DNA of 64,000 bases. Origin: Arsukibacterium sp. UBA5043. GTDB taxonomy: Bacteria; Pseudomonadota; Gammaproteobacteria; Enterobacterales; Alteromonadaceae. The position numbers were made by a program, and so were the translations under genes. Of the stretch, positions 1,265 through 17,667 are shown piece after piece. Under the pieces are notes generated by a model. The model did not search any database. It was not told where the DNA came from and worked only from the letters and a program-made list of their open reading frames with translations. Location of the stretch: positions 115,633 to 179,632 of the forward strand of contig DIBV01000016.1 of the NCBI GenBank assembly GCA_002415085.1, in the 5' to 3' direction. Each line of letters begins with the position of its first letter. The stretch's first letter is position 1.

Positions 1265-1319
1265 GCCAGTTTAGCTTGTGGCAAACTGGAGCGATTCTAA
1301 CCACAAGCAGGTTGAGCAG

Positions 1320-2012: not shown

Positions 2013-2971
2013 TATTTCTGGCTGTCGGCCAGTTAAGTTTCAGTGCCTTCAGCACCGCGGACACCACCGGCAATAGTGAGTTACCGTTACTACTCACCGG
2101 AACCTTACAATCAGCTGACCGCCAGAGTGTGGTTGCCCCGATGAGTGATAACTGGCGGGTACAGGTGCAATGGCTGCAAAATGAAAGTGAGCCGGTGAAA
2201 ACCGGCGATTTGATTGCAGTATTTGACGCTGGTAATACCCAGGCCCAGATTGAACAGTTGAAAAGCAGCTTAGTTAACCATGAAGAGCGGCTAAATCAGT
2301 TGAAAAGTGAGCATAAACAAAGTGTGATGGAAGCAGAGTATGAGCTGAATCGCCGCCAGCTGCTGCTGGAAAAAGCCGGTATCGATGCCGGCGTACCTAA
2401 GGCAAATTTAAGCTTATACGACTTCGAGCAATATCAACTGGAACAAAAGCGGGCGCGCACGGAAGCCAGCAAGGCGGCAGAACAATTAGCCGTTGCCAGG
2501 ATCACCGCCGATGCCGCATTAACCAAGCAACAGTTGCTTATAAAACAAACCCAGGCTGAGCTAACGGACGCTGAAAATGTGCTAAGCCGGATGAGTGTTT
2601 ACGCTACCCAGGATGGCAATATCAGTTATGGCAACCACCCCTGGTATGGTACCAAAATATATGCCGGCGTTACGGCGCAGCCGGGTTGGCTGATTGCTGA
2701 ACTGAACCGCAAAGACAATTTATATATTGAAGCCTGGGTGCATGAAACGGATTTACCGCGCCTGCAGCAGGCCGATGCGCTGCAGGCACGGTTTGATATT
2801 GCCCCCGACCAACCTTTCACTGTTACTCTCAGTGAGTTAGCTAATCAGGGCGAGAAACGCCAGAGTTGGGGTAATGCCCTGTATTATAAAGCTTCATTTA
2901 CCGCCGCCCAGCTGCCTGTTACCAGTCCGATGCTGGGTATGGGCATGTTAATAGAGGTAGCGGCAAAGTGA
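1988..2971 (+). CDS. HlyD/MacA-like adaptor 1 of efflux operon
   Basis: Periplasmic membrane-fusion protein of 327 residues with an N-terminal signal or anchor segment (residues 1-25). A biotinyl-lipoyl-like half is followed by a Glu/Lys/Gln-rich alpha-helical hairpin (roughly 80-190) and beta-barrel segments toward the C-terminus. Adaptors of this family bridge an inner-membrane permease to a TolC-like outer-membrane channel. A strong GGAGG lies just before the ATG, which sits inside the end of the ATPase gene, indicating translational coupling. Unlike the next two adaptors it has no lipobox Cys. It is short for the family, and I cannot assign a substrate. Confidence 0.82.
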   Translation: MFKRTFSIVFLAVGQLSFSAFSTADTTGNSELPLLLTGTLQSADRQSVVAPMSDNWRVQVQWLQNESEPVKTGDLIAVFDAGNTQAQIEQLKSSLVNHEERLNQLKSEHKQSVMEAEYELNRRQLLLEKAGIDAGVPKANLSLYDFEQYQLEQKRARTEASKAAEQLAVARITADAALTKQQLLIKQTQAELTDAENVLSRMSVYATQDGNISYGNHPWYGTKIYAGVTAQPGWLIAELNRKDNLYIEAWVHETDLPRLQQADALQARFDIAPDQPFTVTLSELANQGEKRQSWGNALYYKASFTAAQLPVTSPMLGMGMLIEVAAK

Positions 2972-3999
2972 CTTTATCAAACCCAAAACCATACCAGTAC
3001 TGCCTTAGCGCGGTATTATGCACCTTGCTGCTGAGCGCTTGTCAGCCGGAACGCGTCCAGGATAGCACCAGTGCTGTTGTCAGCTATGTCCGTGCCACCG
3101 GCGAGTTAACCGCCGCTAATTCATTTAAAGCCTCGCCACCCAGCGTCAGCAATATGTGGCAATATAATATTAAGCAGTTAGCACCGGAAAGCAGCATGTT
3201 AACCGAAGGCACCGTAGTGGTGGCGTTTGACGGCCAGCGGCTGACCGACGAGCTGAATAACAAAAATATTGAACTGAAAAGTGCCGAGCAGGAACTGGCC
3301 AACCGTTTGCGCAGCGACGAGCAGACATTTGAAGAGTTGAAACTGACCCTGGCCGAGCGGAAAATGGAATATGATCGCGAGCAACGTAAAGCCGAGATTG
3401 TTGACCAGTCGACCTCTGCTAATGACCGGCGTAAAGCCCAAATAGACTTTACCATTGCCGACAACCAATACCAGCTGGCTCAGGCGAGGCTGGCCAGCCA
3501 TCAGCAACAGCGCCAGGCTGAAGAGCAAATGCTGCTGGCAAAAGTCAGTCGCTTGCAGTCAGAGGTTAGCCAGCTGCAACGCAATATCGCCAGTATGCAG
3601 GTTAAAGCCCCCTTTGCCGGTGTCATGGTCTACAGCATTGGTTTTGACGGCGAGAAATTTTCAGTTGGCGACAGTGCCCAGTTTGGTCAGCCGGTTGCCG
3701 AAGTTAGCCAGCTGGACAGCCTGTATGTTAAAGCCGAAATTGACGAGATCGATTTAAAACAGCTGCAACCAGGATTAGCGGTTGAAGTTACACTGGATGC
3801 TTATCCGGAGCGACGATTTAATGGCGTACTGCAAAGCCTGGGCAACGCAGTGCGGGATAAATCTAACGACAACCTGCGCCGGGTAGTCGATGCCAGTGTC
3901 AGCCTGACCAATCTGGATACCGAGCTGATGCGCCCTGGTATGTCGGCCCGTCTTAATATCAGTCTGGGCAACCTGCAGGGAGAGCCGAATGAAAACTAA
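2968..3999 (+). CDS. HlyD/MacA-like lipoprotein adaptor 2
   Basis: This 343-residue adaptor starts with GTG overlapping the previous stop by 4 bases (GTGA). The N-terminus has a lipobox ending LLLSAC (about residues 20-25), so it is probably a lipoprotein facing the periplasm. A lipoyl-like segment is followed by a long coiled-coil hairpin (about 85-205), then the second lipoyl half (QVKAPFAGVMVYS) and a barrel domain. It differs in sequence from the adaptors on either side. It probably forms part of a mixed adaptor ring or works with the same permease; substrate unknown. Confidence 0.82.
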   Translation: MTLSNPKPYQYCLSAVLCTLLLSACQPERVQDSTSAVVSYVRATGELTAANSFKASPPSVSNMWQYNIKQLAPESSMLTEGTVVVAFDGQRLTDELNNKNIELKSAEQELANRLRSDEQTFEELKLTLAERKMEYDREQRKAEIVDQSTSANDRRKAQIDFTIADNQYQLAQARLASHQQQRQAEEQMLLAKVSRLQSEVSQLQRNIASMQVKAPFAGVMVYSIGFDGEKFSVGDSAQFGQPVAEVSQLDSLYVKAEIDEIDLKQLQPGLAVEVTLDAYPERRFNGVLQSLGNAVRDKSNDNLRRVVDASVSLTNLDTELMRPGMSARLNISLGNLQGEPNEN

Positions 4000-5188
4000 G
4001 TGTTATCGACTGCTGCCGGCCACAGTTACCTTTGGCCTGCTCGTTTTATCGGGCTGTGCTGAGCCCGAGCTACAGGTACCGGTATATAAAGTAGCACCCG
4101 CCACTCTGGTGCATAAGGTGCATACTGAAGGTGAATTATTTGCGGTAAATTCGGTAACTATTAATGCGCCGCGTAATGTGCAGGGCCCACGTTTTATTGC
4201 CAGCTTGGCCCGCGAATACACCAGGGTTGAACCTGGTGATGTGGTGGTAACTTTCGATGCCACTCAGCTGGAGCGCTCGCAGCGTAAAGCCAGCTCCAGC
4301 CTTAGCAGTGTGCTGGCCGACGAGCAGCAAAAACTGGCTGAACAAAATAACGAGCAAAAAGGCCTGGGGCTGGATCAATCTCTGATAGCGCAGGAATTCC
4401 GTTTTGCCGATCAGTTCAGTATTGACGATGTGCAAATTCGTTCAAAGCTGGAAATTCTTGATTCGATGCAAAATAAAGAATATCTCGGCGAGAAAAAACA
4501 ATATCTGGGCTGGCAGGAACAAAGTTTCAGTCAGCGCAGTAGTGGCGAGCTAGAACTGCTTCAGCTGCAACGCGGCCAGCAACAAAGCCTGCTGCAACAG
4601 GCCGAAACTGGTTTAGCCGCGCTGGAAGTCAAAGCGCCACACGCTGGTATTTTGCTGTTCGATACCAACTGGCGCGGTGAAAAGCCAGAAGTAGGCGGCA
4701 TGGTGTTTCCTGGCTTTAAAATAGGCAGCATTCCCGATCTAAGCCTGCAGCATCTGAAATTACAGGTTATCGAACAAGAGGCCATTGGGCTGGCAGCAGA
4801 GCAGCGGGTGACATTTTATCTGGCCGCCTGGCCCGATACGGTGCTTAACGGTAAAATTGTTTCCGTTGGCGCGATAGCGCAATCGCGCGAGCGACGCGAC
4901 CCGCGTAAATATATCGAAGTCATTGTCGCACCCGAGCAACAAGACCCCCGCTTTATGCCTGGTATTAAAGCTATTGCCACTCTGTGGGTAAACGAAAAAC
5001 CTGAAATATTAAAAGTACCACTGCAAGCCATTTTTAGTGAACAACAGCAGCTGTATGTTTACAAACGCAATGGCAGCACTTTTGTCAGACAACCCATCAG
5101 TCTGGGTAGTAAAAGCCTGAGCCATGCTGAGATCAGCAGTGGTATCGCCGCCGGCGATGAAATTGCCCTTGTTAACCCGGAAAGCTGA
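3989..5188 (+). CDS. HlyD/MacA-like lipoprotein adaptor 3
   Basis: Third membrane-fusion protein of the operon, 399 residues and the longest. A lipobox LLVLSGCAEP (around residue 23) predicts a lipoprotein. The helical hairpin region is at about 95-205, followed by LEVKAPHAGILLFDTNWRGEKP, split lipoyl and barrel strands, and a C-terminal membrane-proximal domain ending in IAAGDEIALVNPES. GGAG precedes the ATG, which overlaps adaptor 2 by 11 bases. This one has the full MacA-like domain set, including the membrane-proximal domain, so it is the likeliest direct partner of the permease. Confidence 0.83.
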   Translation: MKTKCYRLLPATVTFGLLVLSGCAEPELQVPVYKVAPATLVHKVHTEGELFAVNSVTINAPRNVQGPRFIASLAREYTRVEPGDVVVTFDATQLERSQRKASSSLSSVLADEQQKLAEQNNEQKGLGLDQSLIAQEFRFADQFSIDDVQIRSKLEILDSMQNKEYLGEKKQYLGWQEQSFSQRSSGELELLQLQRGQQQSLLQQAETGLAALEVKAPHAGILLFDTNWRGEKPEVGGMVFPGFKIGSIPDLSLQHLKLQVIEQEAIGLAAEQRVTFYLAAWPDTVLNGKIVSVGAIAQSRERRDPRKYIEVIVAPEQQDPRFMPGIKAIATLWVNEKPEILKVPLQAIFSEQQQLYVYKRNGSTFVRQPISLGSKSLSHAEISSGIAAGDEIALVNPES

Positions 5189-5192
5189 AGCC

Positions 5193-6428
5193 ATGAAACA
5201 TACACCTCTGATTAAAGACACCCTGGCCGAACTGGCTCAGCATAAATTGCGCACTTTTCTGACCCTGCTGGGTATGATCTTCGGCGTGGGCGCTGTGATT
5301 GCGATGCTGAATATCGGTGAGGGTGCTGAACGTGAAGCATTAAAAACCATTGAAACCATGGGCTTGCGCAATCTAATTGTGGAAGGCCGCAAATTTGATG
5401 AAAAAACCCTGCAAGAGCAGCGCAAGCACTCGCTGGGCCTGAACCAAAGCGACATTGATGCTGCCGTAGCCACCATTCCCGGCGTAACCTCTTACAGCGC
5501 TGAGCGCACCCTGGATACCTACGGCATCTACGGCCACAAGGGCAAAAGTGATGGTATTGCGCTTGGGGTGTCACCCAGTTATATGGCGTTAAGTAAGCTG
5601 CAGTTTGTTGCCGGTCGCAACTTTACCGAACAGGAAAATCGCTACGCCGCCCAGGTGGCCATTTTAGGTGCCCGGGTGGCGCAAAGCTTATTTCCCGATG
5701 GCGATGCGCTTGGTAAGCCAGTAAAGGTTAACCATGTCTGGTTACAAGTTGTGGGTGTACTGGCCGAGCCCTATGCCGGCAGTAATGAATTTCAGGGCAT
5801 TAAACTGGGCGGCGAGCAAAATCAATTGTTTATGCCACTGAACACCGCCCAGACCCGCTTTAAAGCCGAGCCGCTAACTGCCGAGCTTACCTCATTCCGG
5901 CTGCAACTGAGCGAGGATGCCAATAATGCGTTAAGCGCCAGGGCGCTGGATTTTTTGCTAAAGCAGCGCCATAACGACATCGACGATTACAACATTATTG
6001 TGCCGGCTGCTTTACTGGCACAGCAAAAGCAAACCCAACAGATATTCAATATTGTGATGTCGTGCGTCGCTGGCATTTCACTATTAGTCGGCGGCATTGG
6101 CATTATGAATATCATGCTGGCGACGGTACTGGAGCGTACCAAGGAAATTGGCCTGCTACGGGCCATCGGTGCCACCCGGCGCGATATTAAAATTCAGTTT
6201 GTGGCCGAAAGCTTTGCTATCGCCATTCTTGGCGGCCTGCTCGGTATCGTATTTGGCATCTTGCTGTCGGAGCTTATCGCCTTTTACTCCGACTGGGCCG
6301 TTAGCTGGTCACTGTTAGCAATTGGTTTGTCATTTAGTATCTGCGCCCTGATTGGCGTGGCCTTTGGCGTGTATCCGGCCATTAAAGCCTCAGAACTGGA
6401 CCCGATAACGGCGCTGCAAAGTGAATAG
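5193..6428 (+). CDS. MacB/FtsX-family ABC transporter permease
   Basis: Inner-membrane permease of 411 residues. A transmembrane helix near residues 20-42 is followed by a large periplasmic MacB-type core domain (about 50-290). Three further helices follow (roughly 300-325, 345-375, 380-405), including the conserved FtsX segment around TVLERTKEIGLLRAIGATRRDI. The start is the ATG four bases after the adaptor 3 stop; an upstream in-frame start at 5124 would overlap that gene without a ribosome site. With the ATPase at 1320 it forms a two-component ABC transporter that acts on periplasmic substrates. A role in protecting the cell from the neighbouring lanthipeptide is possible but unproven. Confidence 0.88.
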   Translation: MKHTPLIKDTLAELAQHKLRTFLTLLGMIFGVGAVIAMLNIGEGAEREALKTIETMGLRNLIVEGRKFDEKTLQEQRKHSLGLNQSDIDAAVATIPGVTSYSAERTLDTYGIYGHKGKSDGIALGVSPSYMALSKLQFVAGRNFTEQENRYAAQVAILGARVAQSLFPDGDALGKPVKVNHVWLQVVGVLAEPYAGSNEFQGIKLGGEQNQLFMPLNTAQTRFKAEPLTAELTSFRLQLSEDANNALSARALDFLLKQRHNDIDDYNIIVPAALLAQQKQTQQIFNIVMSCVAGISLLVGGIGIMNIMLATVLERTKEIGLLRAIGATRRDIKIQFVAESFAIAILGGLLGIVFGILLSELIAFYSDWAVSWSLLAIGLSFSICALIGVAFGVYPAIKASELDPITALQSE

Positions 6429-6442
6429 CTAAGTGTAATAAT

Positions 6443-6516
6443 TTGCCAGTAGCACTATAATTCGGTTTTACAGGACGTACTGGCAACATATCAATCGTAA
6501 GTCGCTAATAGTGCTA
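6443..6516. repeat. two interleaved inverted repeats between convergent operons
   Basis: TTGCCAGTA (6443-6451) has its exact inverse TACTGGCAA at 6478-6486. The overlapping TAGCACTAT (6450-6458) has its exact inverse ATAGTGCTA at 6508-6516. The order A-B-A'-B' makes the two stems cross rather than nest. The last arm contains the stop codon of the peptide exporter gene on the minus strand. This may be the end structure for both convergent transcripts; there is no T-run. Confidence 0.55.
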
Positions 6517-8598
6517 GCCAAGTTCTATTACCCTATCAACAGAGGCTATGGTTTCCGGGCGATGAGCAATAACAATTCTTGTGATGTTTAAATTTTTAAT
6601 GGCATTACTGACATAGGATTCTGTTTTAGTATCCAGATGACTGGTAGCTTCATCCATAAATAAAATGCGTGGTTGGCGATAAAGTGCTCTGGCCAACAGG
6701 ATCCGCTGTTTCTGCCCTCCAGATAGGGCCGATCCCATATCGCCAATAAGGCTGTTATAGCCCATTGGCATCTGCTCGATATCCTGGTGCACCGCAGCCA
6801 TTTGAGCACACTCCAGTACTCTGGCCATATCTGGCTGCTCTTCAAAAAATACAATATTGTCGCGAATAGAGCCCGACAACAGCTGGTCATCCTGCATGAC
6901 GGCTGCAATTTGTCGACGATAATTGGCCAGCCCCAGCTGTTGCAGAGGCATACCATCAACCAATACTTCACCGTCACTGGGTAGCAGTAACCCCAGCATG
7001 ATTTTCATCAACGTAGTTTTGCCACAACCTGAAGGACCGACCAAGGCTATAGATTCACCTGCCTGAATCGTCAGGCTGACATTTTGTAATACAGGGCGCG
7101 TTGTATCGCTATAAGCGAATTGAATACCCCGAAGTTCCATATTACCAGCCAGTAGTTTCTGTTCACGCTCTTGCTCCGGATGTACATTTTCCTTTGTTGT
7201 CAGTGCGATATCACCTAAGCGTTCAAAGTGAAGACTAAGCATTCTAAACTCAATCAGTTTTTCAATTAGCCGCGCCATCCGATCCATAAACTGAGTTTTG
7301 TAAGCCATAAAAGCAAACAGCATACCCGTGCTAAAGCCACCTGCCAGAATTAGATGGGCGGCCAGATAAACAACCAATATATTTTCAATACCAAAAAGTA
7401 GCCGGTTCACTGTTTGATATGAGATATTGAATACGCCAAGCCTGATAGATTGATTTGTCGCTTCAACAAAATGATGTTGCCAGATACTTTCCCGCTTAAC
7501 CTCAGAACCAAATAGTTTTATGGTTTGAATACCGCGAACAGTCTCCATAAAATTTGAATTCTCTTTCGCCAAGGCAAGAATTTCTTGTTCTGATACAGCC
7601 CGCAGTGAATGATACATCGCCAATCTGAATAGGGCGTAAACTAACACCGCGGCCAACACTACCATGCTTAACATCGGGCTATAAATCAGAATAACCACCA
7701 AAATGGCCATTGCCATCAAGCCATCAATTAATGCTTCAATCATGCCTGTAGTCAGTAGTTCTCTAACCTGTCGCAGCGAACCAAAACGCGATACCACGTC
7801 ACCCATATGGCGCTTTTCAAAGTAATTTAATGGCAAGCGCACTAAGTGGTGGAACAGATTGCCGGACATTTGAATATTCATTAAATTGCTAAAATGCAGC
7901 ATGACAAAACCCCGCAACGCGCTTGTAGCAATTTCAAACAACAACACTAATGAAAAACCTAAGGCCAACACCAACAGCAGACTGGTGTCATTACTTAATA
8001 TCACATCGTCAATTACCAGTTGCATATAATAAGGAGCGATCAGGGTGAACACCTGCAGCAATATTGACAGCGTAAATAGCAAAACAAGGGAGCGTTTAAG
8101 TCCAGAAATTTTTGACCAGAAATTTGATAACCCTAACCTGCGTTGTCCCTCTTTCAGTTTAAATTCATTTGTAGGTGTTAACTCCAGAACGACGCCAGTA
8201 AAATGTTTTCCTGCCTCTGCCAGGCTCAGTTTGCGGATTCCGAATGCAGGATCTTGGATGACAATATGCTTAGCGTGTACTGCTTTAAGCACCACAAAAT
8301 GGTTGAGATCCCAATGCAAAATGCAAGGAAGCTTTAAGGCTGGCAGATCTTCTAATTCGATACGCAACGGCCGGGATGTTAGCTGTAGTCTTTCGGCAAA
8401 ATTCATCAAATCAAGCAGCGTGCAACCTTCAATCGATAGTGAAAACTTCTGCCGCAATTCATTTAAATTCGCTTTATAGCCGTAGAAGCCAGCCACCATC
8501 GCCATACAAGCCAGTCCACACTCAGCGGCTTCTGTCTGATGGATCATGGGCAAGCGGCTGCCTTGCCAAAAAGTCAGTTTTTCGGTCAATGCCTGCAC
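6514..8598 (-). CDS. peptidase-containing ABC exporter (C39 PCAT) for lanthipeptide
   Basis: This 694-residue inner-membrane protein both cleaves the leader and exports the peptide. The N-terminal C39 peptidase has oxyanion Gln21, catalytic Cys27 (in AAECGLACMAM), His100 (in NHFVVL) and Asp116 (in QDPAFG), all present. Six transmembrane helices lie at about 165-450. The nucleotide-binding domain has Walker A GPSGCGKT (about 520), signature LSGGQKQR (about 627) and Walker B ILFMDEATSHLD (about 645). The start is GTG sharing one base with the adaptor's TAG stop (TAGTG), with AAGGA 8 bases before it. C39 peptidases cut after double glycine, which matches the precursor leader in this cluster. Confidence 0.94.
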   Translation of the reverse strand: MQALTEKLTFWQGSRLPMIHQTEAAECGLACMAMVAGFYGYKANLNELRQKFSLSIEGCTLLDLMNFAERLQLTSRPLRIELEDLPALKLPCILHWDLNHFVVLKAVHAKHIVIQDPAFGIRKLSLAEAGKHFTGVVLELTPTNEFKLKEGQRRLGLSNFWSKISGLKRSLVLLFTLSILLQVFTLIAPYYMQLVIDDVILSNDTSLLLVLALGFSLVLLFEIATSALRGFVMLHFSNLMNIQMSGNLFHHLVRLPLNYFEKRHMGDVVSRFGSLRQVRELLTTGMIEALIDGLMAMAILVVILIYSPMLSMVVLAAVLVYALFRLAMYHSLRAVSEQEILALAKENSNFMETVRGIQTIKLFGSEVKRESIWQHHFVEATNQSIRLGVFNISYQTVNRLLFGIENILVVYLAAHLILAGGFSTGMLFAFMAYKTQFMDRMARLIEKLIEFRMLSLHFERLGDIALTTKENVHPEQEREQKLLAGNMELRGIQFAYSDTTRPVLQNVSLTIQAGESIALVGPSGCGKTTLMKIMLGLLLPSDGEVLVDGMPLQQLGLANYRRQIAAVMQDDQLLSGSIRDNIVFFEEQPDMARVLECAQMAAVHQDIEQMPMGYNSLIGDMGSALSGGQKQRILLARALYRQPRILFMDEATSHLDTKTESYVSNAIKNLNITRIVIAHRPETIASVDRVIELG

Positions 8599-9839
8599 TA
8601 CATCTGTCCTTTTATACTGTAAATCGGATCAAACAGCCATTGCAGCAAACTCCGGCGCTCGGTAATAACATCGCCATCTAGCGTCATGCCAGCCCTTAAC
8701 GGTAGCTCGCGGTTGTAAGCCTGTATCTGCTGCGAGCTCAGTTGCACCCGAACTCTATAACTTGGCTCCTGGAGAGTAATGTCCGCAACTTCTTCAGGCA
8801 TGAGTACCGTGTGGCTTACTTCATTCACCCGCCCTAATTGCACACCGAAACGCTCATAAGGAAAAGCGTGAAAACGCAGCCGGACATCCTGGCCGGGTTC
8901 AATAAAAGCAACGGCACTTGTGGGTACATAAACAATGGCTTCTAATTCAGCGCCCTCTGGAAGCAAGCTTAAAACAATACTACCAGCGTTAATGAAATAA
9001 CCTGGCCCAGGCAAAATACCACTGATCGTCCCCGCTTTAGGTGCTCTGATCATGCTGCTTTGTTCATGCTGCAGGCGTGTAAGTTGATTCCGAAGTTCTG
9101 AAATTTGGTTATCTAACTGTGCCACGGTAGCTTGATGGTCTATTGGTAGCTGTTTTTGCAGGCTTTGCTGCTGCTTTAATTGTTCTTCCAGCGTCAGTCG
9201 CTGACCTTGCAACACTTGCTCCTGCTGCTGCAATGCCAGCAACGTATCTTGTTGCCGGCTTAACTCCAGATTCGAAATAAAACCGGTACCTGAAAGCTGG
9301 GAAACCTGCTTAACTAACCGTTGATTTAACTCCAGCCGCTGTTGAAAAGTCGCTTGCTGCTGCAATACCTGGTTAAGCTGCAACTGCGCACTGACATTAC
9401 GCTCTATAATATCTTGCTCGCGGATACGCTGACTGGCGATTTCCTGTTGTTTTTGCCGTTGCAGATTTGACAGAATAGCGCCGAGCTCCTTTTTTAGTGA
9501 TGCATTCAGCTCAGTTTGTTCAGATGAAAAGTGCTGCATAGTTAGCTCTATCAGAGGTTGGCCCGCTTTCACCTTCTCCCCTTCTTTAACCAGAAGCTTT
9601 TGTACAGTGCCTGCCTGAGATGTTTGAATCCGAATTACACCTTGCTCAGGCTGCAAAACGCCAAACACAACCGTTTTGCGCGCATAACTTCCACTGAGTA
9701 GAAAAATGAATGAGCAGACCACAACAAAGAGGATCAAACCAGTTAGCCAGTAAAAAGCAGGTACCTGCACCAGGCTAACCTCGCCCTGCATTCGCGACGT
9801 TTGCTGATTGAGCACTTGTTCACGGAATAGAGATTTCAT
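8598..9839 (-). CDS. HlyD family secretion adaptor of the lanthipeptide exporter
   Basis: 413-residue periplasmic adaptor with one transmembrane helix (about 28-52), a lipoyl half around residues 75-100, a long Gln-rich coiled coil (about 105-265), a second lipoyl half (IRAPKAGTISGILPG) and a beta-barrel domain. It resembles adaptors of microcin and bacteriocin exporters such as CvaA. It should link the C39 exporter to a TolC-like channel, which is not encoded in this window. A 10-base direct repeat (9827-9836 and 9838-9847) straddles the start codon, and the ribosome site is weak. Its stop overlaps the exporter start by one base, so the two are co-translated. Confidence 0.9.
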   Translation of the reverse strand: MKSLFREQVLNQQTSRMQGEVSLVQVPAFYWLTGLILFVVVCSFIFLLSGSYARKTVVFGVLQPEQGVIRIQTSQAGTVQKLLVKEGEKVKAGQPLIELTMQHFSSEQTELNASLKKELGAILSNLQRQKQQEIASQRIREQDIIERNVSAQLQLNQVLQQQATFQQRLELNQRLVKQVSQLSGTGFISNLELSRQQDTLLALQQQEQVLQGQRLTLEEQLKQQQSLQKQLPIDHQATVAQLDNQISELRNQLTRLQHEQSSMIRAPKAGTISGILPGPGYFINAGSIVLSLLPEGAELEAIVYVPTSAVAFIEPGQDVRLRFHAFPYERFGVQLGRVNEVSHTVLMPEEVADITLQEPSYRVRVQLSSQQIQAYNRELPLRAGMTLDGDVITERRSLLQWLFDPIYSIKGQM

Positions 9840-9940
9840 AGAGATTTAATCGTGTTCAACAGAAATTTGCCCTTTGCCATCCTACCAGAAGGTTCAGCGA
9901 CACACGCAATGATTAACCCATTCAGGCGTATTACTGCCAT
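9836..9940 (-). CDS. possible 34-residue ORF between lanB and hlyD
   Basis: An ATG two codons after the lanB stop opens a 34-codon frame, the same frame as lanB. It ends in TGA that overlaps the hlyD ATG by 4 bases (ATGA). Such tight packing suggests a coupling peptide that helps translate hlyD, whose own ribosome site is poor. The predicted peptide is hydrophobic at the N-terminus and basic at the C-terminus, with one Cys and no double-Gly leader. No family is recognised, and the ribosome site before its ATG is weak, so it may not be a real protein. Confidence 0.3.
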   Translation of the reverse strand: MAVIRLNGLIIACVAEPSGRMAKGKFLLNTIKSL

Positions 9941-9943
9941 GCG

Positions 9944-12900
9944 CTAATGCAACTCTTGGCGGGACTGACAAGATAGATAGTATCGACGAAGAAAATCGTA
10001 CACCACGAACTCCTGCTCCCGACCATAAGCTTTAAAAATACGATTATTAAACATATGCAGTAAAGAATGCAGCAAAATGTCCAACGTACAGCTAAGTTGA
10101 TTGCTATTTTCTAGCGCTAAAAGCTGCAACACTGCTGGCTGCAATTGCTGCAAAAATTGTTGCCGGACTTTCAACATTTGTGGTCTCGGCTGTTCAGCAG
10201 AACCATATTCCATCGCCTGAAAGTCCTGGCGCAGCTGCTGCTGACAATCACGAAATTTCAAACCCAATTGACTACGCAATTTGGCGTGTTCCTGAAACTC
10301 CTGCCCAAAGCTTTCCCGTAAACCGCTTATCAATTTTAGCTTTTGGGACAAGTCATACCCAAAGGCATCCAGCATTGTATCAATTCCCAGCAGGGCCATG
10401 CGCCATCGCACTGATTCTCCATGTTCAGAAATTAATTGCAGACTACTGAGAACAAACTCACTGTCAGCTTGAAATATTTGTTCACAGTACAGCATCGCAA
10501 TGTCACCACCATAACGCTCGACTTCTCGCTGGTAAGTGAATACTTCAATTTTACTGATCCGCTGGCAACTCAGCCATGACGCTAACTGCTTTTGTAAAAG
10601 GGGAAGTAATTGACCGCACAGCGCCGCAGGCTCACCAAATAATCTCAACCTCAAGTGCCAATCTGGATCGGCATAACGAATGAAAAACCAGCTTTTAACA
10701 AGCCCCTGCTGACAATACTGGCGCAGGAACGGTGTTAAACTTTCAATAAGCACTAGCTCAGCGGTACTGTTTGCGGCATAGATTTTCAGGCTTAGCCATT
10801 CAGAACCGGGTGCAAAGTAGCGCTGCACAGTCATATCAAGCTGTTTTGCCGGATTCGGATGTAACGTTTCGAATGGAGCAGCCTGAGGATTCAACATGGG
10901 AACAAGAATTTCATGGGCAAAATTCCCTTCGTCGTTCACTACTGCACTTTCATATTGCATCGCCAACGACTCTTTTAGCTTAATCCGCGGTTGCCCTGCT
11001 GTTTCGCATAATAACAGGTCGATCATAGCCGGATTATGTAAATCGACTATCAAGACATTATCGCTAATCGCATAGCAAACATAACGGCAAAGCTGGTATC
11101 GTTGCGCAATAGCATCCCATGCTTCTCGCTGCCATTGATTATTTACCACTAACGCTTCCAGCATACTGCGATCTATTTGCCATTGCGCTTCGTGTAAAAT
11201 CACATTATCCAGTTGTATCCGCGGCTGATAATCCATCTGCGAAAAGTTTGCAGGGCTGCTAAAGTGCGGCAATCGTCCTTGCTGATGTTGTAGAACGCAT
11301 AGAAAACGGTATACGCCGAGACTTCGACCTGAATAGTTATGGGCAGACGTTAATCGAGGAACAATTTGCTTATTTAAACGCTTTGACCATAACTTAACCT
11401 GGCCTGCTTCGACAAATACATAAAGGTCCTGCACAGGGATTTGTCTTTCATCAGGTGAAACCGTATCCGCCAGAAAAACAATTTCATAATTTCGCAAAGG
11501 CGGCCTGGCTATAACATTACCAGGGCGGCCATCGGGCATATGCACAACTTCAGCAAAAATCACCGTTGGCGATAGCGCCTCTTCAGCGGCCAAGTATTGA
11601 CGGACCTGCTGCAGGAGCTCACTATTTAGGTGGCAAAAGCGCCCCAGTAAATTTGCACCGGAGGGACCGGAGCAACCATGAAAGTGGATTAAGGGCTGCC
11701 TGTTGTCATCTAAATAATAACTTATATTAAGTGCATATGATGACGGAAGCTTCTGCCAAAGAGCTACTCTATCGGTATCTTTTAGAATCTCGTTACTGCT
11801 CAGCTGAATACAATTCACTCTTCCCTGGTGCTGCATGGCATTTACCACAAGTTGCTCTAATGGGTTTTGAGGCTGGCCCGGGGACTCATGATGGCGGTTG
11901 GCAATATTTATTCCGGCAAGTAATGGCGTTTCATAGCCGGTTTCTGCCGAAAACGGAATGCCACTCTCTTCATCAAGCAACGGTAACAATGGTACGAATT
12001 GTCCTTCGAATCGCTGCTGGAAACTAGTAACAAATGCCTTAAAAGGACTATCTCTTTTCCCTGACTGGGCTTTTAAAGCAAGTACAGTGTTTTCCAATAT
12101 AGTCAGGAGGCTGCGATCGAGTTGGCAGTGCTTCATCGCACGCCAACTATCTGTTTGAAAAAGCTTATTTTCCGAAACAGGATATGGCAATTGCTTTAAT
12201 TGAGTTACTACGGTTTGATAATCGTTTGGCTCTGCAGCACCTTTTTGGTCAAGGACTTCCAGCTGGTCTAATACCGCCTGCAATAACTCTCCATCCCGCT
12301 TGTTTTCTACTTGCAATAACTGCCGTACAAATGCCTGATCTGGCTGCCCACTGGTGAGTGGCAATTTCAACTCAGCAACCAAAACTTGCTCTTTAATCAG
12401 CTGCTGGATGTAGTTTTCGATGTCTGCTTTGCTCGCCTCTGGATATTCCTGACCGAATAACTGTGCCAGTTTAGATTCCGATTGCCCCTCTCCAGATAGG
12501 CGAAGCATAGATTCTAAAGCTTCATCCAGCTCAACCGAGCTAAGACGATAGTGACGCTGTGAAGATTGGTAAGATTCAATATAGTGTAAATATGAACCCA
12601 ACCGATATAAGGTAGTGTTGGGTTTATAACATAACTGCCGTCTACCTTCCTCGCTTTGCGCCCATTGCTGTTGAATCGTACTCAGATAAAACATATCCAG
12701 CCGGGTTTTGCGGCTATCTTGTTGCAAATCTTCAGGCTTGAAATTACTTGAGTCAGACAAACTGCCGACGGCGACTCCGGAAAACAAGCCAAAAGGTGTC
12801 GGCCTGCTGCACATCCGAATCAGATATTTCAATAATGCAGTCGTTACCTTGCGACCTGATTTGCTTTCAGGCTTATCGCGCCAGATTTCAAGCCGTTCAG

Positions 12901-13075
12901 CTAAGGAAGGGCTAGCTAAATAAATAGCCTCTAAAATACCAGGAGTGGCAAGCCAGCCCGACAAGTAATCGTTCAAAGATAGCGCTGAACCAGGAAGATC
13001 TTTGATTTTATTCAAGCTCAGCCGTGGTACCCGAACTACAATAAAATCAGCCAAACATTCAGTTTTACTGCCCAT
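9944..13075 (-). CDS. lanB: class I lanthipeptide dehydratase, full length
   Basis: This 1043-residue enzyme is predicted to dehydrate Ser and Thr of the precursor at 14484-14672 by glutamylation (using Glu-tRNA) and glutamate elimination, in the cytoplasm. The N-terminal glutamylation domain shows the hallmark RPTPFGLFSG (91-100) and KTRLDMFYL soon after. The C-terminal elimination domain begins near 750 and shows SWFFIRYADPDWHLRLRLFG (about 780-800) and YQREVERYGG (about 845), typical of the SpaB C-terminal family. Both halves are in one chain, as in NisB (about 1000 residues). AAAGG precedes the ATG by 6 bases; the gap to lanC is only 24 bases. GC looks lower than in surrounding housekeeping genes. 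Confidence 0.95.
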   Translation of the reverse strand: MGSKTECLADFIVVRVPRLSLNKIKDLPGSALSLNDYLSGWLATPGILEAIYLASPSLAERLEIWRDKPESKSGRKVTTALLKYLIRMCSRPTPFGLFSGVAVGSLSDSSNFKPEDLQQDSRKTRLDMFYLSTIQQQWAQSEEGRRQLCYKPNTTLYRLGSYLHYIESYQSSQRHYRLSSVELDEALESMLRLSGEGQSESKLAQLFGQEYPEASKADIENYIQQLIKEQVLVAELKLPLTSGQPDQAFVRQLLQVENKRDGELLQAVLDQLEVLDQKGAAEPNDYQTVVTQLKQLPYPVSENKLFQTDSWRAMKHCQLDRSLLTILENTVLALKAQSGKRDSPFKAFVTSFQQRFEGQFVPLLPLLDEESGIPFSAETGYETPLLAGINIANRHHESPGQPQNPLEQLVVNAMQHQGRVNCIQLSSNEILKDTDRVALWQKLPSSYALNISYYLDDNRQPLIHFHGCSGPSGANLLGRFCHLNSELLQQVRQYLAAEEALSPTVIFAEVVHMPDGRPGNVIARPPLRNYEIVFLADTVSPDERQIPVQDLYVFVEAGQVKLWSKRLNKQIVPRLTSAHNYSGRSLGVYRFLCVLQHQQGRLPHFSSPANFSQMDYQPRIQLDNVILHEAQWQIDRSMLEALVVNNQWQREAWDAIAQRYQLCRYVCYAISDNVLIVDLHNPAMIDLLLCETAGQPRIKLKESLAMQYESAVVNDEGNFAHEILVPMLNPQAAPFETLHPNPAKQLDMTVQRYFAPGSEWLSLKIYAANSTAELVLIESLTPFLRQYCQQGLVKSWFFIRYADPDWHLRLRLFGEPAALCGQLLPLLQKQLASWLSCQRISKIEVFTYQREVERYGGDIAMLYCEQIFQADSEFVLSSLQLISEHGESVRWRMALLGIDTMLDAFGYDLSQKLKLISGLRESFGQEFQEHAKLRSQLGLKFRDCQQQLRQDFQAMEYGSAEQPRPQMLKVRQQFLQQLQPAVLQLLALENSNQLSCTLDILLHSLLHMFNNRIFKAYGREQEFVVYDFLRRYYLSCQSRQELH

Positions 13076-13099
13076 TTTATACCTTTCTTATTATTATTT

Positions 13100-14293
13100 T
13101 CAGGCTAGCAGTAGCGCGTCAGCCCAATCCGGTGCAATACCTTGTCTGGCGAGTAAACAAAGCCCAATTCCCGAATAACCTTCTAACAAACCTCTGTCCT
13201 CAACCAGCTGGCCAGCTTTATTAGCATAAAAGCCCTTCTTGTTATCTTTTTTTATCCGGGCTAAGGTATTTTCTAACCAGTAATCTGACGCAACTTTAAA
13301 CTCAGGCTTAGGGATGATGTCGTTAAGCAACTGAAATATTAACATTAACCCAGAACTGCCATGGCAAATCCCAGCGTCATGGACCATAGCACTATCTTCT
13401 CTGCGCTGCGCCGCATGAACACCTAAGTTGCAAGCAAAATCTATTAAATCCTGGCGTCCCAAGGCTTTTCCGGCTCTTGCCAAGGTAAGTGCGATAGTGA
13501 GGTCACCGTAGCACCATCCTAAACGACTTGGCTGATTCTCTTCAGCACAATTAGAAAAAAGGCTGCCTGTCTTTCCAGCGGGTAGCTGTTGTTGAATCAA
13601 CCAGTTACACCCGTCTGACACCAACTTCTTAGCCTTCTGACCAGAATCAGGATGAGCAACTGCAGGTAATAACGCGCATATTATTGCGGGTACACCATGC
13701 GCTAGTCCCAAATTGTGTTCAGGTTTGTCGGGATTCGCTTTATCAAAGCGATAAATTGACGTAGCGGGTGTTGACCAAGTACAGGTATCGGCGCTTTTGT
13801 ATATTGCGCATTCTGAGAGTCGATTGATAATAATCCGGTAAAGCTCCACCCCACGTTCGTGCCGGAGGCGCCGCTCTGCGAAAACAGCAATTCCGCTTAG
13901 CCCTAAAACAAATTCAATCTCACCGTGCCACACTGGGGTCTGTTTTAATACCGATGTGATGTATTCCTCTATCTCTTGATTAATCTCAGGATCATAACCT
14001 TCATTTTGTTCAGTAAGCAGCAACTCCATTAACCAGCCATAACCTGCTAAACCATAACCAAAATTAATATTATTTCCCATTAAAGGGATGCTATCTATCA
14101 ATTGATCGAGTTGCAGTTGGAATTGGGATGTTTCAAGCTGATATAGCGATGATTTCGCCGCATACCAATGAAACAGAAGATGTCCTGGCGTGCCCGTAAG
14201 CAATGATAAATTTTTTGTTATAGAAGCATCAGTAGATTGCGTAGCATCAATTAGCCTTTGAATAACACTCTGAATTTCAGATTCATACTTCAA
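13100..14293 (-). CDS. lanC: lanthionine synthetase C-family cyclase
   Basis: 397-residue zinc enzyme predicted to add Cys thiols to the dehydrated residues made by LanB, forming lanthionine rings. The alpha-toroid GxHG-type repeats are visible (GLAHGVPAII near 197-206). The zinc ligands Cys261 (WCYGD), Cys310 and His311 (ICHGSSG) are all present. The start is probably TTG at 14293; the only upstream codons before an in-frame stop are ATT, ATT, AGA, CTG and GTT, so a CTG start at 14305 is the main alternative. It lies between the precursor and lanB on the same strand, and is notably AT-rich at its 5' end. Confidence 0.94.
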   Translation of the reverse strand: MKYESEIQSVIQRLIDATQSTDASITKNLSLLTGTPGHLLFHWYAAKSSLYQLETSQFQLQLDQLIDSIPLMGNNINFGYGLAGYGWLMELLLTEQNEGYDPEINQEIEEYITSVLKQTPVWHGEIEFVLGLSGIAVFAERRLRHERGVELYRIIINRLSECAIYKSADTCTWSTPATSIYRFDKANPDKPEHNLGLAHGVPAIICALLPAVAHPDSGQKAKKLVSDGCNWLIQQQLPAGKTGSLFSNCAEENQPSRLGWCYGDLTIALTLARAGKALGRQDLIDFACNLGVHAAQRREDSAMVHDAGICHGSSGLMLIFQLLNDIIPKPEFKVASDYWLENTLARIKKDNKKGFYANKAGQLVEDRGLLEGYSGIGLCLLARQGIAPDWADALLLA

Positions 14294-14437
14294 AATAATT
14301 CTCAGAACTTACGTCTTGTTAATCACGGCGTTACCTAACGCGAATCAAATAATGTTAAATTATATGTACATTATTCGCTATAACTTACTTTTAAAACCCG
14401 CTTTGTAACCGTCCAGGTTATAGTCACTGAGCAAAAG

Positions 14438-14490
14438 CTGACATGCCTACATTGTGAACGTAAGCATGTCAGATACTAATTACTTAGTAT
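14438..14490 (-). terminator. two hairpins after the precursor gene, likely attenuator or mRNA stabiliser
   Basis: On the minus strand, directly after the precursor, ATACTAA/TTAGTAT (14484-14490 with 14473-14479) forms a 7-pair hairpin that includes the TAA stop. It is followed by CTGACATGC/GCATGTCAG (14464-14472 with 14438-14446), nine pairs around a 17-base loop, then CTTTTGCT. The T-run is short, so partial termination is likely. This would give more precursor than enzyme mRNA, a common arrangement in bacteriocin operons. Confidence 0.5.
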
Positions 14491-14672
14491 TGCTTACAAG
14501 TGTAAACAGTGGTGCAGTCATTGAAAGACATCAGCGTCAAAGTACCACCACCAGCTACCTGAGGAGTCAATTCGTTAGGAAGCACCTTGTTGTCAGGCGT
14601 CATATCCTGAGGCAATACTTTGTTATCATTAGATAAATTTGCAAGCTCAACTTTTTTGAAATTTAATTTCAT
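14484..14672 (-). CDS. lanA: lanthipeptide precursor with double-Gly leader
   Basis: 62-residue precursor. ATG at 14672 has AAGGA 7 bases upstream. The leader (1-42) has a basic start MKLNFKKVELANLSN, two tandem 11-residue units (DNKVLPQDMTP 16-26, DNKVLPNELTP 27-37) and ends QVAGG. The predicted core is residues 43-62 (bases 14487-14546). It holds Cys53 and Cys59 with Thr44, Thr46, Ser49, Thr54, Thr55 and Thr58. Ser49-Cys53 and Thr55-Cys59 are both i to i+4, so two equal five-residue rings are possible. It lies upstream of lanC, lanB, hlyD and the C39 exporter on the same strand. No nisin-type lipid II binding pattern is present; the target is unknown. Confidence 0.88.
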   Translation of the reverse strand: MKLNFKKVELANLSNDNKVLPQDMTPDNKVLPNELTPQVAGGGTLTLMSFNDCTTVYTCKQY

Positions 14673-14738: not shown

Positions 14739-14766
14739 ATAATACACAAATTTAAATCACTGGCAA
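14739..14766 (-). promoter_or_regulatory. sigma-70 promoter of the lanthipeptide cluster
   Basis: On the minus strand TTGCCA (14766-14761) and TATTAT (14744-14739) are separated by 16 bases, a good match to -35 and -10 elements. Transcription would start about 60 bases before the precursor ATG. The leader contains a small inverted repeat GTTGC/GCAAC (14711-14730). Confidence 0.5.
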
Positions 14767-14910: not shown

Positions 14911-15510
14911 CTAATATTTAACACTACAGCCATAAGGACGGGTAACGGCCGGGTCCGGTGTATTGCCGGCCAGTACGGCTTTGGCGGCGTTGGCAAAGTA
15001 CGGCGTAGCTTTGGCAATATCATCCACTTTAGCGGATGGGATACTGTCGATGCCGCCCATATACTGCAGTACACCGTTTTTATCGATAACATACATATGT
15101 GGCGTGGTCTTCGCGTCATACGCTTTGCCCATAACGCCCGTCTCATCGAACAGAATTGCGGTGGGCGCCGCCTTGCGATTGCTGGTTAGCTCTGCTGCTT
15201 TGGCGCTGTCTACATGGCCCTGCTTGCCCGGTGCTGACGAGATCACACTAAGCCAGACTACGTCTTTGGCCTGCATATCTTTTTGCAGCTGCTGCATATT
15301 GCCGCTGTAATGTTTGACCACAAACGGACAGTCGTGATTAGTCCATTCCAATACCACGTTTTTACCGGCAAAATCTTGCAGGCTATGGCTTTGGCCATTT
15401 GCATCTTTCACCGTAAAATCCGGCGCTGGCTGGCCAACTTGTGGCGCCGCAGCAAGTGTAGCGGCAAAAAGCATGGCACCAGCGGAAACAACGAGTTTTG
15501 CTAATTTCAT
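14911..15510 (-). CDS. secreted peroxiredoxin-like redoxin protein
   Basis: About 199 residues with a signal peptide (1-22, cut near AAAP) and a thioredoxin-fold redoxin domain: VGQPAPDFTVKDANG, LQDFAGKNVVLEW and a single active-site-like Cys in NHDCPFVVKHY. The family is the peroxiredoxin-like/TlpA-like group; the second Cys of a CxxC is replaced by Phe. ATG at 15510 is chosen because AGGAG lies 8 bases before it; the GTG at 15519 would fall inside that site. It follows dsbD on the same strand 48 bases later, so it probably receives electrons or is handled with DsbD in the periplasm (inference). Confidence 0.8.
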   Translation of the reverse strand: MKLAKLVVSAGAMLFAATLAAAPQVGQPAPDFTVKDANGQSHSLQDFAGKNVVLEWTNHDCPFVVKHYSGNMQQLQKDMQAKDVVWLSVISSAPGKQGHVDSAKAAELTSNRKAAPTAILFDETGVMGKAYDAKTTPHMYVIDKNGVLQYMGGIDSIPSAKVDDIAKATPYFANAAKAVLAGNTPDPAVTRPYGCSVKY

Positions 15511-15558
15511 AGATATCACTCCTGTTGTGTGATTGATTACAACTTAATTGTTGGCAGC

Positions 15559-17667
15559 TTATTGCTGACTTATCGACTCAAATGTTTGCCTGAGAGTATC
15601 AGGTGTTAAAATTTGCGGCAGCACTTGTGGCGGCTGCCCTGGCCAGTACAACACGTATAGCGGCACACCATCACGCTGATACTGCTGCAAATAAGCAGTA
15701 ATATCGCTGTCGCGGCGGGTCCAGTCACCCTTTAAGTAACTGACATTATATTGGCTGAGCGCTGCTTTGCTGCGCTCGGTATTCAATGCTACCCGCTCGT
15801 TTACCAGGCAGGTAATACACCAGTCGGCGGTCATGTTCACCAGTACCGGTTTACCCTGCTGGCGCAGTGCACTGAGTTTATCAGCAGACCAGCTTTGCCA
15901 GTGTTGCGCCTTATTATCGGCGTGCGAACTAATATTTGCTTCAGGGTGCAGCTTAGCCCCCTGCCACAGAATAACGAGCGCCAGTAATAACAAGCCCAGT
16001 GCCGTCAGCTTGTTGAACCCGCCAGCACCCAGTTGCACCCTGCCCCATAGCCATATCGCTGCAGCCAACGACACCATACCAATCATTAATATTGCCATAG
16101 CATCGATACCGGCCTGGCGGCCAAATACCCATAGCAACCACACTGCACTTAAATAAAGGGGCCAGGCCAACAGCTGCTTTAGCGTATCCATCCAGGCGCC
16201 GGGTTTGGGTAACAGCCGTGCCAGCGCCGGAATATATGCCAGCAATAAAAATGGTAATGCCATGCCAAGACCCAGCGCGGCAAATACCAGTAAAGCGACG
16301 AGCGGACTTTGGGTTACTGCATAACCGAGCGCGGTGCCCATAAACGGCGCCGTACAGGGGCTGGCGACCACCACTGCCAGTACTCCGGTAAAAAATGAGC
16401 CTTTGCCGCCACTTTTTGCAGTGAGAGCACCACCGGTATTCATTAAGCCCAGGCCAAACTGCACCAGGCCGGATAAGCTTAAGCCCAGCGCCAGTAATAA
16501 ATAGACCAGCAGAGCAACCAGTAACGGGCTTTGCAGCTGAAACCCCCAACCAATCACGTTGCCGGCCGCACGAAGTGCGATCAGCAAACCGGCTAATGCC
16601 AGAAAGCTTAGTACCACCCCTGCCGCATAAAATAAGGCGTCACGGCGCTGAAGTTGCCGTTGCTGGCTGTTAGCAGCGATACTTAGCGCTTTGAGCGACA
16701 ATACCGGAAACACACAAGGCATTAAATTCAGGATCAGGCCACCACCGGCGGCCATCAGTAAAATTAGCCAGAAGCTGTTTGGGCTGAGCGTGCCACCCGT
16801 CACCAGAATCTCGGTAGTACCGCTGGCCAGCAGATCCTGTTGCCGCTGCTGAAAATAAACGGTGTAACCCTGGCCAGTCGCATCGACCAGTACAACTTCG
16901 GCCTGCTCTGGTGCACTGCTAAAGTAGGTATTTAACGCCTGTTGCAATAATAGGCGGTCGTGTTGCGGTATCAGCTGCTGCGGTGCAGCATGGTCAACTA
17001 ACTCGCCAGCGGCCACAAAAAACGCCACTGGCGGTTGAGGCAGTTGATCATTTAACACGGCTGAGAACGCGCCACCACTTATACTGTAGTCGCCGGTAAA
17101 GCCGGTATCAATGGGCAGGGCCGCACGGGCCTTGTTAAATAGTGGCTGCTGGCTGGTTGCCAATTCGGTCTGGTCGGCAACGGCTATTGTCAGTTCAAAG
17201 CTGGCATCAGCCGGAATGCAAATTTCCTCACATACCAACCAGTCAACATCAGCCATGATGGTGAGCGTGTCGTGAGTATAATCAGGCGGTAGAGTGATAT
17301 TGCTCAGTAACAACGTCTGGCCGGCGTAACCATAATTAACCAGCGGCGGTATGAGAAAAGCTTCAGGCGTTGGCCACTGAATATCAGCAGTCTGGACCCC
17401 GGCAGGCACCTGCCAGTTAATAATGGAAGGCAACCCCGAGTCGCCGGGGTTTTGCCAGTAGGTATGCCAGCCAGGGTCGGGCTCAAAATGCAGCAGCACA
17501 GCAATAGTCTGGCCTGGTGCAACCGTGCGGTACTCGCTTACCAGCTCAGCTTTAATGTGCTTAGCTTGCTGCCAGCCGCTGCTGCTGGCATGCAATGAAA
17601 AACTTGCCAGTATGCTGCTCAACGCCAAAGCGGCGCTCAGTAGCAACCCGCTACGTAATCGGATCAT
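15559..17667 (-). CDS. dsbD: thiol:disulfide interchange protein DsbD/ScsB type
   Basis: 702-residue inner-membrane reductant conductor that moves electrons from cytoplasmic thioredoxin to periplasmic partners. After the signal peptide, the periplasmic domain contains CEEICIPA (about 145). The transmembrane domain (about 300-580, around eight helices) contains the redox Cys in MPCVFPVLSLKAL and SPCTAPFMGTALGY. The C-terminal thioredoxin domain has ADWCITC (about 612). The N-terminal domain organisation resembles the ScsB-like subfamily more than E. coli DsbD, which is shorter. It is transcribed ahead of the redoxin gene, the likely substrate. The gene is divergent from the TonB receptor at 17864. 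Confidence 0.9.
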   Translation of the reverse strand: MIRLRSGLLLSAALALSSILASFSLHASSSGWQQAKHIKAELVSEYRTVAPGQTIAVLLHFEPDPGWHTYWQNPGDSGLPSIINWQVPAGVQTADIQWPTPEAFLIPPLVNYGYAGQTLLLSNITLPPDYTHDTLTIMADVDWLVCEEICIPADASFELTIAVADQTELATSQQPLFNKARAALPIDTGFTGDYSISGGAFSAVLNDQLPQPPVAFFVAAGELVDHAAPQQLIPQHDRLLLQQALNTYFSSAPEQAEVVLVDATGQGYTVYFQQRQQDLLASGTTEILVTGGTLSPNSFWLILLMAAGGGLILNLMPCVFPVLSLKALSIAANSQQRQLQRRDALFYAAGVVLSFLALAGLLIALRAAGNVIGWGFQLQSPLLVALLVYLLLALGLSLSGLVQFGLGLMNTGGALTAKSGGKGSFFTGVLAVVVASPCTAPFMGTALGYAVTQSPLVALLVFAALGLGMALPFLLLAYIPALARLLPKPGAWMDTLKQLLAWPLYLSAVWLLWVFGRQAGIDAMAILMIGMVSLAAAIWLWGRVQLGAGGFNKLTALGLLLLALVILWQGAKLHPEANISSHADNKAQHWQSWSADKLSALRQQGKPVLVNMTADWCITCLVNERVALNTERSKAALSQYNVSYLKGDWTRRDSDITAYLQQYQRDGVPLYVLYWPGQPPQVLPQILTPDTLRQTFESISQQ

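Follow-up and report, generated by a model that had tools for sequence, protein, structure and literature searches.

An apparently intact class I lanthipeptide gene cluster in a relative of Rheinheimera and a possible many-precursor counterpart in Pseudoalteromonas

Five genes on the minus strand (positions 6514–14672) of the 64,000-nucleotide stretch of DNA analysed here, referred to as the window, very probably form an intact biosynthetic set for one class I lanthipeptide. They encode a 62-aa precursor, LanC, a full-length LanB, HlyD and a C39 peptidase-exporter; this set, with its order, place and strand, is as an earlier note had described it, and the note's reading of a class I lanthipeptide cluster with intact enzymes was upheld in every sequence test made. 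The source bacterium is related to Rheinheimera, and its genome (99.96% complete) holds a single LanB match and a single LANC_like match above cut-off. Relatives of the cluster point further, and we lean slightly towards the view that one tolerant Pseudoalteromonas LanB–LanC pair acts on dozens of precursors, up to at least 50, which are scattered and have a common leader but different cores, the window cluster being the single-precursor form, with a mixed ancestry that shows exchange of cores and enzymes behind a constant exporter. The wider family of clusters matters more than the window cluster alone, whose own contribution is a short two-cysteine core, new among the few class I lanthipeptides known from gammaproteobacteria.

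Biosynthetic enzymes and exporter

The LanC cyclase (13100–14293, minus strand, 397 aa, TTG start) matches the LANC_like profile (PF05147, E 1.8e-34). Its zinc ligands C261, C310 and H311, which had been described as intact, are present together with H199 and are invariant across 15 LanC proteins. The catalytic positions examined in the cluster are kept with one conservative change, Glu127 at the position of NisC Asp141, where 13 of the 15 LanC proteins have Glu and two have Asp; in NisC, the D141N substitution abolished cyclisation (PMC7296275).

Both the glutamylation and the elimination domain of the LanB dehydratase (9944–13075, minus strand, 1043 aa) are found in a single chain (PF04738 and PF14028; Lant_dehydr_N E 1.4e-127, Lant_dehydr_C E 3.6e-61). 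Its hallmark residues had likewise been called intact, and indeed nine catalytic positions of NisB (K79, R83, R87, T89, D121, R464, R786, E823 and R826), placed on the window LanB by alignment, are identical there and in 11 of 11 LanB proteins. NisB H961 falls outside the alignment, with H1007 as the invariant candidate. LanC is conserved beside LanB in most relatives among the loci listed.

Downstream lie genes for an HlyD-type membrane fusion protein (8598–9839, minus strand, 413 aa; PF13437, HlyD_3 E 2.9e-15) and a C39 peptidase-ABC exporter (6514–8598, minus strand, 694 aa), which combines a Peptidase_C39 domain (PF03412, E 1.8e-36) with ABC domains (PF00664/PF00005) and in which C27, H100 and D116 align with the peptidase residues of the PCAT transporter 4ry2. 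No immunity gene was recognised in the cluster and no outer-membrane channel gene was found in it. A MacB-type operon (1278–6428) was considered for immunity or export and rejected, as the operon is convergent and neither its adaptor nor its permease group is among those shared with other loci. DsbD and redoxin genes beside the precursor (14911–17667) were also set aside as pathway genes; they adjoin Alkalimonas clusters too and look like an insertion site. A scan of viral contigs with the LanB profile gave no match, so nothing in that collection points to a cluster carried by phage.

A precursor with a conserved leader and a two-cysteine core

The precursor gene (14484–14672, minus strand) runs from an ATG at 14672 to a stop ending at 14484, with AAGAAGGA immediately upstream. 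Its leader carries an LxFxKx5L motif, in which Phe replaces the second Leu, followed by GG(G), and includes an 11-aa near-repeat (DNKVLPQDMTP/DNKVLPNELTP). The predicted core, GTLTLMSFNDCTTVYTCKQY, contains six Ser/Thr and two Cys. Checked against curated families, the precursor had no match in Pfam (82-aa reading, E ≤ 0.01) or NCBIfam (62 aa, E ≤ 1), and the NCBIfam leader models L1a and L1b returned 0 families for it; across 21 leader sequences, L1a matched four (best E 0.00027) and L1b eight (best E 0.0013). The open reading frame is nevertheless not a chance one, because it has a counterpart in Alkalimonas and because L3, K7, L13, S14 and GG are invariant across the leader alignment of 21 sequences. 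In the Alkalimonas genome, a LanC 60% identical to that of the window is preceded by a peptide with this leader and a related core, and the two cores have in common the motif SFxDCTTxx[ST]CKQ[YF]. The leader and GG site are common to 20 relatives beside LanB clusters.

With the C39 peptidase-exporter, leader motif and GG site all found within the window cluster, its sequence places it in the class I, double-glycine, LxLxKx5L-leader type, with a two-cysteine core that is new. The core lacks the strict nisin pattern SxxxCTP(G/S)C; the earlier note was correct that no nisin-type lipid II motif is present, but such an absence is little guide to the target, which the note suggested could be new. 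SxxxCT is present, and its spacing resembles nisin ring A.

Between the precursor and lanC, a terminator-like hairpin followed by CTTTTGC (14438–14472, minus strand), found as a consensus match only (one against 0.5 expected in shuffled sequence), possibly limits read-through into lanC. A promoter-like TTGCCA-16-TATTAT upstream of the precursor (14739–14766, minus strand) is at chance level (three found, 3.2 expected).

Predicted product and role

The chemistry, rings, export and activity of the product can be predicted from these genes. LanB would dehydrate Ser/Thr residues of the core with glutamyl-tRNA, and LanC would then couple each of the two cysteines to a dehydrated residue. The likeliest rings are Ser7–Cys11 and Thr13–Cys17, favoured because both pairs are four residues apart and both recur in the Alkalimonas relative. 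The C39 domain would cleave after Gly-Gly, and the ABC/HlyD exporter, together with an outer-membrane channel encoded elsewhere, would release a product some 20 residues long. The calculated [M+H]+ is 2289.02 for the unmodified core, 2253.00 after loss of two waters and 2180.96 after loss of six.

The least certain step is the role, which would most likely be competition with other bacteria, as for thalassomonasin A. A signal or another non-antibiotic role is possible, though the less probable reading; it would suit the patchy occurrence of the cluster and the lack of a recognised immunity gene, and PMC11433236 reports only minor activity for thalassomonasin B and leaves that of viridisin undetermined. 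The same source, however, reports thalassomonasin A to be active against Gram-positive and Gram-negative species, and hypervariable cores and swapped precursor-side genes fit competition better.

Exporter and peptide-making genes differ in history

The trees indicate that the peptide-making genes and the exporting genes differ in history, because the exporter genes of the window pair with those of Arsukibacterium (support 100/100) while the same pairing is rejected for LanC (AU p 0.00024). A starred clade in the LanC tree comprises the window and Alkalimonas proteins. For LanB, the Arsukibacterium pair is rejected more weakly (p 0.015) and the Alkalimonas pair is not rejected (p 0.48). Whether these contrasts reflect rate differences only, with no exchange of gene modules, must be considered: LanC is faster everywhere (where ABC identity is 85–90%, as in 239 of 990 pairs, median LanC identity is 58%), the program flagged the long Arsukibacterium LanC branch (2.09), and the LanB results are the less clear-cut. 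We regard this explanation as unlikely given the strength of the exporter clade against the LanC rejection and the starred clade, and given two Alkalimonas genomes in which identity is 89–96% for the flanks and 94–97% for the exporter but 67–68% for LanB and 57% or 42% for LanC. Module exchange near the window, our preferred reading, would allow peptide–enzyme co-evolution to be tested by comparing close relatives in pairs. We rejected strict co-inheritance of LanC and core, as the A. amylolytica LanC groups with that of the window yet its precursor core differs; the leader of that precursor is interrupted by a stop codon.

Relation to known lanthipeptides

The earlier note called such clusters much less studied in gammaproteobacteria, which is fair, but they are not new: a related LanB is present in 26 of the 295 genomes of the family and several products are published. 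Thalassomonasins and viridisins (PMC11433236) and pseudorosins (PMC12819058) have been described, and PciA of Pseudoalteromonas citrea has been modified in E. coli (PMC9993889). The window cluster joins these known gammaproteobacterial class I lanthipeptides with a new core, and no characterised product was found for its Rheinheimera-type family partners. The Thalassomonas clusters share its class and GG-type leader family, with a LanB (L083) 44% identical, but are described as having two or three precursors per cluster and other cores (PMC11433236). Pseudorosins A–C (Pseudoalteromonas flavipulchra S16) and PciA are, like the predicted window product, class I peptides of marine gammaproteobacteria made with LanB and LanC; their cores differ, however, and their exporter genes precede LanC–LanB, whereas those of the window come after. 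The P. flavipulchra NCIMB 2033 cluster (L072), whose genes we assume to be the pseudorosin genes, has a leader of the window type, and its LanB is 46% identical to the window LanB.

This relationship bears on a further reading, that the enzymes act but leave residues dehydrated or also convert Cys, so that something other than a two-ring lanthipeptide results. In its favour, thiol removal by related LanB enzymes is possible, as reported for the P. flavipulchra dehydratase PsfB, the window LanC carries Glu where NisC has Asp141, and with six Ser/Thr to two Cys up to four would stay unringed; but the reading is very unlikely given the intact zinc ligands, the retention of LanC beside LanB in most listed relatives and the spacing of the two Ser/Thr–Cys pairs kept in Alkalimonas.

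Nisin has the same LanB catalytic residues and LanC zinc ligands as the two-ring lanthipeptide predicted here, but combines an FNLD leader with NisP in place of a GG leader with C39, and its CTP(G/S)C is missing in the window. Leader motif and C39 processing are shared with Bacteroidetes class I precursors, described with LxLxKx5L/GG leaders (PMC7268733). Beyond the alteromonads, the next LanB relatives include Chitinophaga and other Bacteroidota (31–34% identity). The LanB of pinensin (Chitinophaga) is split, in contrast to the single-chain window LanB.

Scattered precursors in Pseudoalteromonas

Leader matches in the source genome occur only at the precursor (14484–14672), hence its one precursor does not follow the prochlorosin-like many-precursor pattern. 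Genomes of the Pseudoalteromonas genus, by contrast with this single-precursor form, hold up to at least 50 scattered leader peptides, generally alongside a single LanB and a single LanC. These precursors have a common leader and variable Cys/Ser/Thr cores. In prochlorosin systems, 29 precursors for ProcM and 79 for SyncM, likewise scattered, are given in PMC10783134. The likeness to prochlorosins, in many scattered precursors, a common leader and few synthetases, concerns the Pseudoalteromonas relatives only, and these use LanB plus LanC where prochlorosins use LanM (class II) and another leader family; the scattered system is possibly a class I counterpart. If one class I pair does serve dozens of precursors, ProcM-like substrate tolerance would not be restricted to class II, tRNA-dependent dehydration would be no obstacle to it, and a ready library for peptide engineering would exist.

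Leader and LanB coincide closely. In the family, the leader was found in 26/26 LanB-positive and 0/269 LanB-negative genomes (at most 21 candidates scored per genome), the hits in positive genomes being partly by construction as the alignment was built from precursors beside LanB. Of the 21 rows in that alignment, only three (genomes G267 and G147) are from the Pseudoalteromonas genus. Among 108 genomes of that genus, the leader was present in 51/51 LanB-positive and 0/57 LanB-negative genomes (at most 57 candidates per genome; 20 of the negatives listed by name and 37 as a number only). The equality of the leader-positive and LanB-positive sets was checked from the genome lists. Many of the matches listed continue through a stop codon, and broken genes may be among them.

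An odd Cys number in 28 of 59 cores, with even numbers thus not favoured, makes it less likely that the scattered peptides carry disulfides only. Nor is every leader peptide likely to be a lanthipeptide, since some encoded close to LanB in loci of the P. luteoviolacea group (L068, L074, L090 and L101) have no Cys. Thalassomonas genomes possess extra leader peptides, additional LanC and LanM-sized LANC_like proteins, hence the one-pair reading is not claimed for them. In an order-wide draw, the leader matched in five of 394 genomes (at most 15 candidates per genome), one of which (G478) belongs to another family.

The lanthipeptide cluster and its residues

The five genes that an earlier note had proposed as a lanthipeptide cluster were borne out in position and order, all on the minus strand. 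The precursor (14672–14484) comes first, followed by LanC (14293–13100), LanB (13075–9944), HlyD (9839–8598) and the C39-ABC exporter (8598–6514), each of these four with a clear Pfam match. Nine NisB positions that we take to be important in that enzyme are kept in the window LanB when aligned to NisB, and none of the nine varies among 11 LanB. LanC retains His199 as well as all three zinc ligands. Glu127 stands at the NisC Asp141 position, as located by counting along the alignment, and across 15 relatives this position is Glu in 13 and Asp in two. In NisC, Cys284, Cys330 and His331 mutants are reported as inactive, with H212 and D141N mutants retaining zinc and losing cyclisation (PMC7296275). 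The exporter's C39 domain keeps Cys27, His100 and Asp116.

The cluster is sound and intact, of a kind already known, with this member new. Thalassomonasins and viridisins (PMC11433236) and pseudorosins A–C (PMC12819058, which also cites work on PsfB) have been described, P. citrea PciA was modified in E. coli (PMC9993889), and P. viridis has a class I cluster (PMC11015633). GC content is 42–47% in the cluster, falling to 38% near the precursor, and mostly 46–57% in both flanks, which fits acquisition of the cluster. A MacB-type efflux operon (1278–6428; ATPase, three HlyD-like adaptors and permease) lies convergent with it.

The 62-aa precursor had no Pfam match at E ≤ 0.01 (searched as an 82-aa ORF) and no NCBIfam match at E ≤ 1. 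Its leader carries LxFxKx5L and GGG; Bacteroidetes class I precursors with LxLxKx5L leaders, a GG end and C39 peptidases were described by Walker et al. 2020 (PMC7268733). An 11-residue near-repeat inside the leader is identical at 8/11 residues and 23/33 bases, and of the 21 aligned precursors only one further sequence, from one of the two found in Alkalimonas sp., shows a similar extension. The predicted core contains five Thr, one Ser and two Cys, with Ser7–Cys11 and Thr13–Cys17 spacing the same as in the Alkalimonas core.

Distribution of LanB

LanB was detected in 26 of 295 family genomes and 11 of 52 genera, including four of the 16 genomes listed for the window's own genus (E ≤ 1e-10). 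One of the 26 (G040) has fragments only, one with an internal stop. From a scan of named genomes we retained the best 80 of 240 relatives, at 79 loci. Among these 80, identity to the window LanB was 63–74% in Alkalimonas, 56–69% in Rheinheimera and Arsukibacterium, and mostly 44–48% in Pseudoalteromonas (35–41% for the most distant); others came from Shewanella, Thalassomonas, Colwellia and Bowmanella, and at 31–34% from Myxococcales and Bacteroidota such as Chitinophaga. Locus L044 (genome G186) has LanB in a degraded neighbourhood and a genome lacking any match to LANC_like, the Pfam model for LanC; it is a decaying cluster.

Scattered leader peptides in relatives

Searching the leader alignment against the same 295 genomes returned 26 positives, identical to the LanB genomes. 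The window's genome has one LanB match, one LANC_like match above the cut-off, and leader matches only at the window precursor. In the Pseudoalteromonas genus, LanB occurs in 51 of 108 genomes, and the identical 51 have leader matches (E ≤ 1e-6); the other 57 have neither. Leader matches in the 51 total 996 (median 15, maximum 50), with at least five in 43 genomes. LanB is single in 49 of the 51, and LANC_like is found exactly once in 36, two or three times in 14 and not at all in one; G315 combines 50 leader matches with one LanB and one LANC_like. Such scattered leader-sharing peptide genes, up to 50 per genome, were seen in the Pseudoalteromonas-genus genomes G315, G321, G348, G305, G243, G267 and others. 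Going by the gene pattern alone, one class I enzyme pair possibly serves many scattered precursors in these relatives. Prochlorosin precursors are reported as scattered, 29 for ProcM and 79 for SyncM (PMC10783134). Searches of the open literature turned up no account of scattered class I precursors; the original descriptions of thalassomonasins, viridisins and pseudorosins may include one.

We took 55 loci from three genomes (17 regions from G267, 20 from G243, a genome with 32 matches, and 18 from the Thalassomonas-group genome G061), and the leader model identified 61 peptides in 53 of them. Two peptides at the LanB cluster were set aside, leaving 59 for core statistics; the other 53 loci showed no LanB or LanC match inside the 2–3 kb taken per side, and weak ABC matches at two. 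Cys is present in all 59 cores, at least twice in 53 and in odd number in 28. Compared pairwise, the leaders are on average 53% identical and the cores 29%. Some cores are common to different genera with Cys positions kept (68% between G267 and G061). G061 has several candidate enzymes for its peptides, as it encodes three proteins of the LANC_like type, including one 1117 aa long. The leader of this family may also serve class II enzymes, since in another Thalassomonas-group genome (G124:C2:376805–378996) a same-family leader peptide lies close to a 1112-aa LANC_like protein of LanM size.

P. luteoviolacea-group loci include Cys-free leader peptides. Near 1.1–2.0 kb of L068, L074, L090 and L101, three to four tandem leader peptides, mostly Cys-free, carry a repeated SSDTSVT core. 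In Bowmanella denitrificans (L099:7253–7645), a 130-aa precursor has a long CGST-type repeat in its core.

Histories of the exporter and LanC/LanB

Exporter and LanC identities were contrasted over 990 cluster pairs having all four genes. The biggest gaps at ABC ≥85% were between two Alkalimonas genomes, and between the window and Arsukibacterium. The latter pair shares 88% identity in ABC, 84% in HlyD, 67% in LanB and 37% in LanC; median LanC identity for pairs at ABC 85–90% was 58%. The Alkalimonas pair shares 97%, 94%, 67% and 42%, respectively, or 57% using its other LanC, with four flanking genes 89–96% identical.

The HlyD+ABC tree unites the window with Arsukibacterium (support 100/100). 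This pair is rejected in the LanC tree (p 0.00024), where the window groups with LanC of both Alkalimonas (support 100/99), and less strongly in the LanB tree (p 0.015), in which the Alkalimonas pair is not rejected (p 0.48). Two observations count against a simple story: LanC of Arsukibacterium sits on a long branch, and A. amylolytica has a precursor whose core differs from that of the window. The A. amylolytica precursor (L031:5326–5574) also has a TAG within its leader, with LanB, LanC and exporter open. At the Alkalimonas sp. loci L034 and L087, two additional genes lie between LanB and HlyD (one without a Pfam match, the other with a weak one), and one LanB serves two precursor–LanC pairs.
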